A DNA stretch of 34,235 nucleotides from SAR202 cluster bacterium (GTDB taxonomy: Bacteria > Chloroflexota > Dehalococcoidia > Lucifugimonadales > GCA-2712585): positions 1 to 34,235 of the forward strand of contig VGZZ01000001.1 in NCBI GenBank assembly GCA_016872285.1, written 5' to 3'. Positions 23,881-29,981 of this stretch are shown here, one piece after another (positions within the stretch are counted from its first letter, which is position 1; the number at the start of each line of letters is the position of its first letter). A program made the position numbers and the translations under genes. A model generated the notes under the pieces. It was not told the origin of the DNA. It did not search any database and saw only the letters and a program-made list of their open reading frames with translations.

Positions 23881-24951
23881 CTATCGCTTCCACGCCACGT
23901 AGTAGTAATGCTCAATATCCCCTTCGACGGTTTCGACGCTGATGTCCTTAAACCCCGCCTCGGCCATTAGCTCCTCCGCCTTCTGCTTGCCCCAGCACGT
24001 TCCCAATCCCTCCCCGCCATAAGCCAGCGATACCGTCATGCAGTGGAAAGTGCTGAAGGTGTACAGAAGAGGAGCTATTACGCCATCTGCGTTCTCTTCC
24101 AACAGGCTGGACGCGCCCTCGTCCATCATCAGGAAGGTCTCGCCGGGACGTAGAGCATCGTAAATCCCCTTAAGCACAACCCGCGGCCTCGCCTGGTCAT
24201 GGATAGCATCGAATGCTGTCACTAGGTCGAAAGCCTCTTTCTGCCCCAGCTTCGCCACGTCCTTAGCCTCGAACCGCGCGTTACGAAGACCCCATGCTTT
24301 CGCCTCGTCAGAGCCTCGCTTTATCCCCTCTTCCGAGAAGTCGTACCCCACAATCCGGCTCTTGGGAAACGCCTTGGCCAGCACGTTTATCGCGTGGCCC
24401 GCCCCTGTCCCAACATCCGCCGCATCTATCCCCTTTTCAAGCCGCTCCCTCAGTCCAGGAACCAGCGGTATCATCTTCTTCACCAGCAGGTGGTCGTAAA
24501 GCGGCGCGCTGGTCTCCGCCATCACCTCGGAGAATCGAGGATAAGAAGAGTAGGGCACTCCCCCGCCCTTGCGAAAACACTCCACCAGCTCATCTTCCAC
24601 TGTCCCAATCAGTGGAATCAACTGCGCGAAGAGGGCCAGGTTGTCCGGCCCCGCCTCCTTGGTGAGAAACGCCCCATGCTCCGGCGGCAGGCTGTACTTC
24701 TTGGTTGACGCGTCATACTCTACCACCTTCCCCACCACCAGCCCTCCAAGGCACTCCCGCACATACCGCTCATTAAGGCCCGCCGCCTTCGCAATCTCCC
24801 TACTCGTCGATGGCTTAATCTTAGCCATGGTCTCGAAGATCCCGGTGCGATAGGCCACACTGGTCAGAAATGTGAGGCCAGCCCCGTTCAGATTTCCTAT
24901 CATCCTCCCCGCGAACGCCTCTGCCTTTGACTGGTCAATCTGCGTAGTCAT
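23881..24951 (-). CDS. SAM-dependent methyltransferase with N-terminal winged helix (Rv2258c-like)
   Basis: Predicted 356-residue class I methyltransferase. Residues about 20-95 form a winged-helix dimerization domain (TSREIAKAAGLNERYVRECLGGLV), as in O-methyltransferases and Rv2258c-type proteins. The Rossmann domain shows motif I DVGTGAG at 179-185, the acidic ribose-binding Asp204 in VGYDFS, and a post-II segment ending in FDAIHD (about 248-253). The acceptor substrate is unknown. ATG 24951 is preceded by GGGAGG. It lies 118 nt after the UGA-containing methyltransferase gene on the same strand, with its own candidate promoter in the gap, so it may be either the last gene of that operon or independent. 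A bidirectional terminator ends it. Confidence 0.88.
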   Translation of the reverse strand: MTTQIDQSKAEAFAGRMIGNLNGAGLTFLTSVAYRTGIFETMAKIKPSTSREIAKAAGLNERYVRECLGGLVVGKVVEYDASTKKYSLPPEHGAFLTKEAGPDNLALFAQLIPLIGTVEDELVECFRKGGGVPYSSYPRFSEVMAETSAPLYDHLLVKKMIPLVPGLRERLEKGIDAADVGTGAGHAINVLAKAFPKSRIVGYDFSEEGIKRGSDEAKAWGLRNARFEAKDVAKLGQKEAFDLVTAFDAIHDQARPRVVLKGIYDALRPGETFLMMDEGASSLLEENADGVIAPLLYTFSTFHCMTVSLAYGGEGLGTCWGKQKAEELMAEAGFKDISVETVEGDIEHYYYVAWKR

Positions 24952-25069: not shown

Positions 25070-25867
25070 CTAGGGCCTACTTGGCTTGTGCGCCCTGAAG
25101 TTTATCCCCAGCGTCCCAAAATTCGCCGCGCTGGAGGACTGGGGCGCCCCGCTGAACAGATCGGCCCGCCACGTGATCTCAAATCCCTGGAACCCCGCTT
25201 CCTCCACCACCAGCTGCAGCTCTGCTTCCAGCAGAGCGCCGGCAATTCAACCCGTCCAAAGGTCAATCTTGTCCTTGGCGCTCTGGGGGACTTCCTTCTG
25301 CACCAGGATGTCGCCAATCTGAAGCCGTCCTCCGGGCTTCAGCACACGAAACATCTCTCTAAACACGGCAGACTTGTCCGGGCACAGGTTCACCACCCCG
25401 TTCGACGTCACCACGTCCGCCCACCCGTCCTCCACCGGCAGCGACTCCGCCAGCCCCTGCTTGAACGACACGTTCTCCAGCCCCGCCTGGGCCGCTCCAG
25501 CTCGCGCCTTCTTTAGCATCTCCGGCGTCATATCCACTCCGATAACCCGCCCCAACGGCCCCACCATCCTGGCCGATATCAGGCTGTCGAAGCCCGCTCC
25601 GCTGCCCACGTCTACAACCTTCTTACCGGGCTTCAAAGCGCCCAGCGAGAAGGGGTTGCCCGTCCCCGCGAAGGACTCCAGCGTCCCTCGCGGCATCCAG
25701 TCCAGCATCGCCTTGTCGTAGCCCAGCATCTCCGCCAGCCGGCGGCCCGCGTGGAAGTGGAACCCCTTCTGCGGGTTCTCCGCCACCTCGGCGTACTCCT
25801 TGCTGATCTCTCGACGCAGCGTATTAAGATCCACGTTTGGTGTGCTTACTGTTGATGCCATTTCCAT
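25070..25867 (-). CDS. ArsM-like SAM methyltransferase, predicted selenoprotein (in-frame UGA)
   Basis: The frame opens at ATG 25867 (GAGGTGA just upstream), meets TGA at 25249-25247 after 206 codons, and continues open to TAG at 25072-25070, giving 265 residues with the UGA at 207. Motif I DVGSGAGFDS, then VIGVDMTPEML, SNGVVNLCPDK and VLKPGGRL place it with arsenite-methyltransferase-like class I enzymes. The UGA falls in WTG-U-IAGALLEAEL, where relatives have WTGCIAGAL-type sequence with Cys. The 58 residues after it (AGFQGFEI ... DLFSGAPQSSSAANFGTLGI) are conserved-looking family sequence, so this is not chance read-through. A SECIS-like hairpin follows. The ArsM Cys of SN-C-VINL is Gly here, so the acceptor may not be arsenite. 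The gene lies 17 nt after the DsrE-family gene. A nonsense mutation is the alternative. Confidence 0.82.
25219..25237 (-). promoter_or_regulatory. SECIS-like hairpin after the methyltransferase UGA
   Basis: On the minus strand GCTCTGC-TGGAA-GCAGAGC is a perfect 7-bp stem with a 5-nt loop whose second base is G. The loop begins 16 nt after the UGA. Bacterial SECIS elements lie immediately downstream of the UGA within the coding region, with a small apical loop that has a G near its 5' side. Function is inferred from geometry. Confidence 0.7.
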
Positions 25868-25884: not shown

Positions 25885-26247
25885 TTAGAAGGTGATAACC
25901 CGGTCGTACTGCGCGTGCGCCGTGGCCGCGTCCACCGGCGTGCCAAACCCGCTGTTCTTGCCCTTAAAATCTTCCTCTGTGACCCCACGGGCCCTTCCGC
26001 AGAGTCCTCAAACCGATATTCTTACGTTGCGCTTTACCAGGAACTCCATCAGCTCCTTCAAGGGCGGCACGCCGATTCCCTGTATCTGCGAGGACATCTT
26101 ATCCTTAATCAAGGGCGCTGCCTCCCCCATAAGGATTATCCCTGTCTCATGCCCCGCCTCAATGGCCCCCTTAGCCATCAAAAACGGAAAGGTAGCCCTG
26201 GTCGGGTCGTCCGTCCCGTGTGTCGCGATGTATAGTAACTTCGACAT
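25885..26247 (-). CDS. DsrE-family protein, predicted selenoprotein with UxxC motif (in-frame UGA)
   Basis: The frame starts at ATG 26247, six nt after GGAGG, has TGA at 26010-26008 (codon 80), and runs on to TAA at 25887-25885, giving 120 residues. MSKLLYIATHGTDDPTRATF, then AKGAIEAGHETGIILMGEAA, is the DsrE/TusD-like opening. After the UGA comes GLCGRARGVTEEDF; family members have a CGPC-ARGI-type sequence, so the UGA replaces the first Cys of a CxxC pair and gives U80-G-L-C83. DsrE-fold proteins carry persulfide sulfur on such cysteines, so a sulfur or selenium relay or thiol redox role is likely. Its end IPVDAATAH-like region also looks conserved. A start farther upstream would give an unrelated basic extension and lacks a ribosome binding site. 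It is 149 nt downstream of the TehB-like gene and 17 nt before the selenoprotein methyltransferase. Confidence 0.82.
25975..26004 (-). promoter_or_regulatory. SECIS-like hairpin after the DsrE UGA
   Basis: On the minus strand an outer stem CTCTG / CAGAG (26004-26000 with 25979-25975) encloses an inner stem GGCCC / GGGTC (one G-U pair) and the apical loop GTG. The loop begins 19 nt after the UGA and starts with G. This is SECIS-like geometry in the same relative place as in the neighbouring gene. Confidence 0.65.
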
Positions 26248-26396: not shown

Positions 26397-27071
26397 TCAC
26401 CTCTTCCGCATCGTCACCCGATATAGCCTCCTCGGCAACGCCCCCTCCTCAAATTCTCCCATCTCCACCACTTCAAACCCCTTCGCCATCTCATCCACCT
26501 TCTCACGGCTGAAAAAGTGGACAATAAATCCGCCCGATTCGTACATGTCCTCCCCACGATGAATCCCCGCCCTATAATGCGCGTCCTTGGTATTTCGCGC
26601 CGTGTACACCATCAGCCCTCCCGGCCTCAGCACCCGCCGCACCTCCCCCATTAACCCCTCCAACTGCTCCGACGTCATCGCCATACACAAAAGCATGTGT
26701 GAATAACAGGCGTCAAAAGTTGCATCCTCAAACGGCAGGGGCTCCCTAACATCATGCCGCACCACCTTCAGCCGCCCCTCCAACTCCTGCGATTTCGCCT
26801 TGGCCGATATCGCCTCCGCCCCGCTCTCGGTGTACTCCAGTGTCGTAACCATGAAGCCTCTCCGCGCCAGGTAAACGCTGTCCCGACCCTGCCCTCCCCC
26901 CAGTTCCAGGACATCCTTCACACCCTCGCTCTTAAAAAGCTTCGCCGCATACCGCCCCGTCTGGCTCGCGTCCGTTCCCAGCATATCCGGGTTCTGCGAA
27001 AACACCCGCTCCCAGTGATTCTTCTGTGCGTCCAATGCCTTCAGTTCCAAAGGCTCTATACGTTTCTTCAA
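26397..27071 (-). CDS. Class I SAM methyltransferase, TehB/thiopurine-methyltransferase-like
   Basis: Predicted 224-residue methyltransferase. Motif I is VLELGGGQGRDSVYLARRG (about 54-72), followed by the acidic TLEYTESGAEAI, a post-I segment VVRHDVREPLPFEDATFD and VLRPGGLMVYTARN. The GQGRDSVYLA signature is like TehB-type enzymes, which methylate tellurite and other chalcogen or thiol acceptors, but the C-terminal half differs and the acceptor is not proven. The start is TTG 27071 with AGGAG about 7 nt upstream. It ends in TGA right after TMRKR, a natural end with no conserved sequence beyond it. It precedes the two UGA-containing genes on the same strand and faces the LysR gene across a 268-base divergent region. 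Confidence 0.85.
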   Translation of the reverse strand: MKKRIEPLELKALDAQKNHWERVFSQNPDMLGTDASQTGRYAAKLFKSEGVKDVLELGGGQGRDSVYLARRGFMVTTLEYTESGAEAISAKAKSQELEGRLKVVRHDVREPLPFEDATFDACYSHMLLCMAMTSEQLEGLMGEVRRVLRPGGLMVYTARNTKDAHYRAGIHRGEDMYESGGFIVHFFSREKVDEMAKGFEVVEMGEFEEGALPRRLYRVTMRKR

Positions 27072-28581: not shown

Positions 28582-29981
28582 ATGGCTTCAACATCACACG
28601 CCCCATCCCACATCCCAAGCGCCCCTCCAGCTCGCACAGTAAAGCGCGCCCTGCGACTATCCACCATGGAAGGCGTGGCCTTTGGGGCCTTCATTGGTCT
28701 TGGGGAACACTTCATCCTTGCCTTCGCAGTGGCTATGTCTGGCAGCAGCCTGGAAATCGGCCTGCTGGCGTCCCTGCCCGGCTTCCTAGGCTCCATTGCC
28801 CAACTCTTTGACACACGTCTAGTCCAATTGCTCAAGAGCAGAAAAGCAGTAGTCCTCATTTTTGCCTTGGCCCAGGGCCTTATCCTCCTGCCTTTAATAG
28901 CAGTCGTCTTTATAGATTCGGGTCAGGGCGTGTGGTGGCTCGTCTTATTCGCCAGCCTTTATTCCATCTTTGGTGCTCTTATCTCGCCTGCTTGGGGTAG
29001 CATCATGTCCCAGCTAGTCCCTGGAAAGCTGCGGGGCAGTTACTTTTCCAGGCGCAGCCGTCTTTCCACTTTAGCTAACGTGATGTCATTTCTTCTGGCA
29101 GGGCTATTTCTGAATCAACTCGTCGAAAAGGAACTCTGGGGATTCGCCGTCCTGTTTGGCGCTGCCGTTGTAGCCAGACTTATATCCTGGGCATTGCTTA
29201 CCCGGCTCCATGAGCCGGACAAAGAGCTATACCAGGTTGCCCACGCCTCGCACACCTCCAACAATGCTCAACGCCATAACCTCCGCACCTACTTGCTTTT
29301 CCTCTTCTGCATGAGCTTTGCCGTAAACATCGCCAGCCCCTACTTTACCCTTTACCAGCTTCGAGACCTTGGCATGGACTACCTTACTTTTGTCGCCTTA
29401 GAGGCTGTATCCACTTTGGCTACTCTGGTAGCTATCACCCACTGGGGCCAGGCGACCGCGCTGGAAATCGTAAAATTCTGCTCCTGACCTCCCTCCTCAT
29501 TCCCTTTGTCCCCCTGCTTTGGATTCCCTCCTCTAACTTCATGTACATAGCCTTGATACAAGCCTTTTCTGGGCTGGCGTGGGCTGGCTTCAATCTCTGC
29601 TCGGTAAACTATCTCTACGACGCCACCCATCCAGATAACAGGACTCGCTATTTGGCATACTTTAGCGCCGGCATGGGCATGACAGCAGGATTGGGCGCTC
29701 TGACCGGCGGATATATCCTCGAATGGCTGCCGGCTCTTCGGGGACATCAGATAATTACTCTTTTCCTAATATCTGGCCTCTTACGTTTGTTAACCACAGC
29801 GGCATTCATATCTCGTGTAAAAGAGGTAAGGAAAGTTAGCAACCTTCCCGCCAGCCAGCTATTTCATATCCTCATCGGTGGCCGGAGCGTTCATCGACGC
29901 GTCATTCACCACCACTCCCCACTCCACCACTTTCATCTTGGGAAAACCAAAGTCGGACAAGCCAACGGCCATCGGCCCTGA
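28582..29981 (+). pseudogene. MFS transporter, frameshifted
   Basis: Two frames together encode one major facilitator superfamily protein of about 466 residues. The first frame (28582-29487) gives roughly seven membrane spans (GLGEHFILAFAVAMSGSSLE, SLYSIFGALISPAWGSIMS and so on). It goes out of frame near 29452-29454 in GGCCAGGC/GACCGC. The other frame continues with DRAGNRKILLLTSLLIPFV, the conserved MFS loop between spans, and then YLAYFSAGMGMTAGLGALTGG to TGA at 29981. One missing base restores a continuous protein. The cargo is unknown. It may be a real null allele or an assembly error. Its codons are less C-rich than its neighbours', which hints at a different origin. It converges with mutL, with only 4 bases between the stops. 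Confidence 0.85.

Follow-up and report, generated by a model that had tools for sequence, protein, structure and literature searches.

Selenocysteine (Sec)-containing arsenite methyltransferases appear in published catalogues of selenoproteins from prokaryotes (PMC9312934, PMC13188914) as well as in the GOS survey of the ocean from 2008 (PMC2398784), the representative of the family being WP_011987699.1 (Table 1 of PMC13188914, citing Fomenko et al. 2007). The families NF041537 (ArsM/AhpD), NF041536 (ArsM/DUF2284) and NF047649 (methyltransferase/UXPK-star) are attributed in a review to Haft and Tolstoy 2025, and DsrE-like selenoproteins (PF02635) with a UxxC motif have been described as well (PMC13188914, PMC2398784). 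In CmArsM As(III) is bound by C72, C174 and C224, and both methylation steps depend on the last two of these (PMC3877260), while TtArsM of Thermus thermophilus HB27 methylates arsenite with a single active-site Cys and two His, the latter proposed as ligands (PMC8649762).

The window, i.e. the whole stretch of 34,235 nucleotides analysed here (contig VGZZ01000001.1 of a SAR202 cluster bacterium), holds an ArsM-like SAM methyltransferase gene, predicted to encode a selenoprotein, at 25070..25867 (-), with 265 codons from the first ATG to a TAG stop at 25072-25070. The frame contains a single in-frame UGA at 25249-25247, corresponding to residue 207 in the context WTG-U-IAGAL, and continues for 58 further conserved residues before the TAG, all as described in the original prediction. 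The second ATG (25861) may be an alternative start, favoured by its better spacing from the sequence GAGGT, and the Sec would then be residue 205. TAG is apparently the commonest stop among the long ORFs of the window (~16/25), which seems unusual, the mechanical ORF list including spurious frames.

The kind of protein encoded by this gene is already known, since Sec-containing ArsM-like proteins have been catalogued both in the surveys cited above and as NF041536, NF041537 and NF047649, and the novelty implied by the original prediction can therefore not be upheld. Like the listed Sec arsenite methyltransferases, to which it is likened by description, the window protein is of ArsM type with one Sec in a UxxG motif (here U-I-A-G), and in the three NCBIfam families the alignment to the ArsM-like domain likewise extends across the Sec. 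These families are however fusions or carry further Sec residues, while the window protein consists of one domain and has only one Sec, and no AhpD, DUF2284 or UXPK end was found in the 265-codon product. When ArsM/AhpD fusions were searched for in the phylum none matched, the control genomes likewise being without a match. Beyond the catalogued kind, the branch to which the gene belongs is, judging from the alignments, also without the other arsenic-holding cysteines. This replacement of the site, and the operon that the gene appears to form with a DsrE-like selenoprotein gene, were not found in the literature examined.

Searches with Pfam and NCBIfam placed the product among the SAM methyltransferases. 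The best NCBIfam models were NF041537, NF041536 and NF047649, whose N-terminal domain is ArsM-like (241, 222 and 215 bits, all below the cut-offs of 510, 575 and 460), together with the arsenite methyltransferase model PRK11873/NF008823 (arsM; 235.7 bits, below the cut-off of 263). The nearest solved proteins by sequence are CrArsM, CmArsM and AS3MT, and a structure model (pLDDT 91.7) gave as closest folds CmArsM 4fr0 (Z 26.8, rmsd 2.3 over 217 residues), 6cx6 and CrArsM 5evj. With these enzymes the window protein has the fold, the SAM site and the position of the catalytic Cys224 in common, but it is shorter, lacks the C-terminal extension and differs in its putative metal ligands. The residues of the SAM motif DxGxGxG (D86, G88, G90 and G92) are invariant and U207 is aligned on Cys224 of CmArsM, so that on alignment and model the protein is very probably an ArsM-fold methyltransferase with Sec in its active site.

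When comparing the arsenic-binding positions it was found that only C224 of the three As(III) cysteines of CmArsM is kept, as Sec. Wherever the sites align in the relatives the position of C72 is occupied by V, T, M or I (Thr in the window protein) and that of C174 by Gly, whereas in all 30 canonical ArsMs compared from this phylum C72, C174 and C224 are all Cys and none has a UGA. The same genome also encodes a canonical three-Cys ArsM of its own. In place of the N-terminal CC-type Cys cluster of the canonical enzymes a nearly invariant HFHTGR motif is found, with H37 and H39 present in 109 of 112 relatives, and the structural alignments to CmArsM begin at 37 to 42 and 38 to 44, around its Cys44, which we take to be a conserved cysteine. 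A further cysteine, Cys162, is present in 86 of the 112 relatives. As far as the sequences tell, the Sec is thus accompanied by the disappearance of the remaining thiol ligands. Since C72, C174 and the N-terminal Cys cluster are missing, arsenite as substrate is unproven and must be considered doubtful as the main one; of the arsenite reading that the ArsM-like label had carried, the fold and the Cys224 position stand, but the missing arsenic-binding cysteines had been overlooked. The loss of two cysteines does not on the other hand exclude arsenic, as TtArsM methylates arsenite with one Cys and two His, in which it may resemble the window protein, although its retained Cys is C77, at a different site, and the enzyme is without Sec and only distantly related.

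Directly upstream, at 25885..26247 (-) and ending 17–23 nt before the start of the ArsM-like gene, lies a DsrE/DsrF-like gene (PF02635, 120 aa), which was overlooked in the original prediction and is predicted to encode a second selenoprotein, its only in-frame TGA (26008..26010 (-), U80 of 120) forming the motif UGLC; both the family match and the UxxC motif are shared with the described DsrE-like selenoproteins. For its putative SECIS the ungapped model gave only -5.2 kcal/mol, and free folding gave a 10-bp stem of -15.7 kcal/mol without a G in the first two loop positions. DsrE-like genes are found near the ArsM-like gene in 16 relative loci, with the motif UGLC (L122), UGLU (L035) or UGGC (L121) by TGA, and CxxC in 13 further loci. 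In L035 (L035:1094-1459) the gene has three TGA codons, two of them within the UGLU motif and the last close to the end of the gene.

Further upstream, at 26397..27071 (-), a SAM methyltransferase gene is the first in a conserved order of three genes (methyltransferase, DsrE-like selenoprotein, ArsM-like selenoprotein), an order that recurs in L035, a locus in a genome belonging to the same family, although there the contig ends within the ArsM-like gene, ahead of the Sec site. The product corresponds to the N-terminal two thirds of the NCBIfam family MduS (NF045649; 275 bits, below the cut-off of 380, covering only 6–217 of 338 profile positions) and is without the C-terminal part of MduS, which bears two Sec; possibly it is an ancestral or split form of MduS. 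A reading of its terminal TGA as a MduS-type Sec was rejected and the codon taken as a normal stop, since another in-frame stop follows soon after and the profile match ends there. Near the ArsM-like genes ArsR-rhodanese regulators are found in 14 loci and further methyltransferases recur as well. Taken together the neighbourhood suggests a pathway for chalcogens or metal(loid)s, with no particular substrate named. A third methyltransferase in the row, with a Rv2258c-like winged-helix domain, is located downstream at 23881-24951 (-); genes of this type were not found beside the ArsM-like gene in the closest relatives.

The explanation that fits best as a whole, and that we consider likely, is a Sec enzyme in which a selenolate holds a metal(loid) for methylation by SAM, with a DsrE-like partner. 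SelB with Sec-tRNA(UCA) would read the UGA at codon 207 as Sec, directed by the hairpin just after it, as conservation and machinery suggest, and the product would be a class I SAM methyltransferase of ArsM fold with Sec replacing the catalytic Cys224. A soft metal(loid) would most likely be held beside SAM by the selenolate, either on its own or together with His37/His39 and, in the majority of members, with Cys162, this ligand set being proposed from conservation. The DsrE-like UxxC selenoprotein, probably co-transcribed, may supply reducing equivalents or carry chalcogen. Candidate substrates are arsenic in trivalent or methylated form, antimony, tellurium, selenium or a thiol.

That the methyl acceptor is a metal(loid) is rather more probable than the contrary, and the alternative that survives best accepts the Sec but proposes that a small thiol, selenol or persulfide receives the methyl group, the Sec acting as nucleophile or redox switch. 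Such an acceptor would agree with the absence in every relative of the two cysteines that canonical ArsMs keep with C224, with the presence of a canonical ArsM in the same genome, with DsrE-like and rhodanese-type neighbours pointing to sulfur or selenium handling and with scores below the ArsM family cut-off. Against it stand the facts that the sole retained position is the catalytic As-binding Cys of ArsM, that the ArsM fold match is by far the best and that TtArsM manages with one Cys and two His, and we regard it as a possible but less probable reading than a metal(loid) held by the selenolate.

To address the decoding of the UGA, homologues were collected from a scan of genome contigs (80 relatives) and from 400 sampled genomes of the phylum, some genomes being present in both sets. 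Of all loci with E < 1e-60 in which this site is included (n = 112), 103 have UGA and 9 have Cys (TGC or TGT), with no other codon, and the UGA is kept in relatives across several phyla. The homologues are thus all Cys or Sec at this site, which bears out the proposal that in this ArsM-like methyltransferase a Sec occupies a Cys position. In the phylum sample the subfamily is found in 30 genomes, 26 with UGA and 4 with Cys. Identity to the relatives is 73–81% after the UGA compared to 66–72% before it, with many synonymous changes, which indicates that the part downstream of the UGA is under protein selection.

The genome (2.6 Mb in 83 contigs, 95.6% complete) contains selA, selB, selC and selD, i.e. 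the complete machinery for Sec, with a tRNA-Sec of anticodon UCA (TCA) 76 bits over the cut-off and SelB, SelA and SelD at 365, 557 and 376 bits, all above cut-off. SelD (L027, G000:C33:2556-3479) has an in-frame TGA of its own (CAG-U-ASK) and is itself a selenoprotein. A selB hit is missing in 2 of the 26 genomes with the UGA form in the phylum sample, both less than 85% complete, and in 2 of the 4 with the Cys form, but with selB present in as many as 307 of the 400 genomes sampled from the phylum its co-occurrence adds little.

Downstream of the UGA a putative bacterial SECIS hairpin was identified at 25219..25237 (-), consisting of a 7-bp stem (GCTCTGC/GCAGAGC) and a 5-nt loop (TGGAA) containing GG. 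The stem and the loop with its G are as first proposed, but the distance is not, as the stem starts ~9–10 nt after the UGA and not 16; it is the loop that starts at 17 nt. According to the rules for bacterial SECIS elements a G is found in the first two loop positions, the spacing is 16–37 nt and the MFE is at most -7.5 (PMC13188914), and with -11.7 kcal/mol and a loop spacing of 17 nt in the 8-bp reading the hairpin agrees with these. An equally good hairpin follows 20 of the 916 TGA triplets in the window, so the hairpin alone is weak evidence and a comparison of the relatives was called for.

Among 96 distinct UGA sequences the first seven stem pairs are formed in ~96% of the cases, and the pairs vary in sequence, with pair 14–30 being C-G in 45 and G-C in 41 and pair 15–29 C-G in 51 and T-A in 29, whereas just half of the 8-pair cells hold standard pairs in the nine Cys forms. 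Double-sided changes appeared in 22 cells among 25 varied sequences, compared to 6.7 in shuffles and 1–5 in slid controls, and the pairing in the same sequences dropped from 93% to 32–47% when the partner strand was slid. Compared to codon-preserving shuffles the UGA forms have a stronger hairpin (mean z -2.1, 66% with p < 0.05) but the Cys forms do not (0/9), all these statistics being descriptive and not exact probabilities as related sequences are not independent. With the relatives considered, a stem that covaries in the UGA forms and not in the Cys forms is strong evidence for a SECIS at the predicted position.

Conservation and machinery together mean that the UGA at codon 207 (25247..25249 (-)), aligned with the catalytic Cys224 of CmArsM, is almost certainly decoded as selenocysteine. 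The reading of the UGA as a true stop, leaving a truncated methyltransferase of 206 residues, a pseudogene or a sequencing error, could draw on other genes of the window ending in UGA, as the original prediction had noted of the genome and as is the case at least for the MFS gene at 28582-29487 and the methyltransferase at 26397-27071 (-). It is nevertheless highly improbable, because 103 relatives from several phyla share the UGA, coding conservation goes on past it and it is followed by a covarying SECIS in a genome with full Sec machinery; pseudogene and truncation were rejected on conservation already. Decoding of the UGA as an amino acid other than Sec, through a suppressor or a general change of the code (to Trp, for instance), for which no supporting evidence was found, is more improbable still and was rejected, since UGA terminates other genes, the only alternative residue aligned in the relatives is Cys and a tRNA-Sec is present.

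In a tree with canonical ArsMs, with bootstrap not fully settled, the subfamily forms a clade at 100/100, inside which the Cys forms need about five changes within the Sec forms. As the Cys forms arise about five times inside the Sec clade, Sec is probably ancestral in the subfamily, with repeated loss from Sec to Cys (about five times). Tandem pairs of ArsM-like genes occur in L069, L093, L103, L115 and L122, both copies having Gly at the position of C174, and which copy has Sec and which Cys differs between L093 and L115. A wider proposal, held only tentatively, is that of a widespread subfamily in which the ArsM Cys site has been replaced by one Sec and the HFHTGR motif and which is paired with a DsrE-type selenoprotein in a pathway that depends on selenium and has a substrate other than arsenite, the Sec being ancestral and binding a metal(loid) or chalcogen during methyl transfer instead of taking part in redox chemistry.

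An annotation stopping at the UGA would cut the protein just before its catalytic residue, and this concerns relatives in several bacterial phyla, including the cultured Enhydrobacter aerosaccus and Desertibaculum subflavum. Should the loss of the arsenic cysteines have the meaning it suggests, many genes labelled arsM in environmental surveys may not encode arsenite methyltransferases, and Sec would then take part in methyl transfer as a ligand or a nucleophile, as is known for few selenoproteins.
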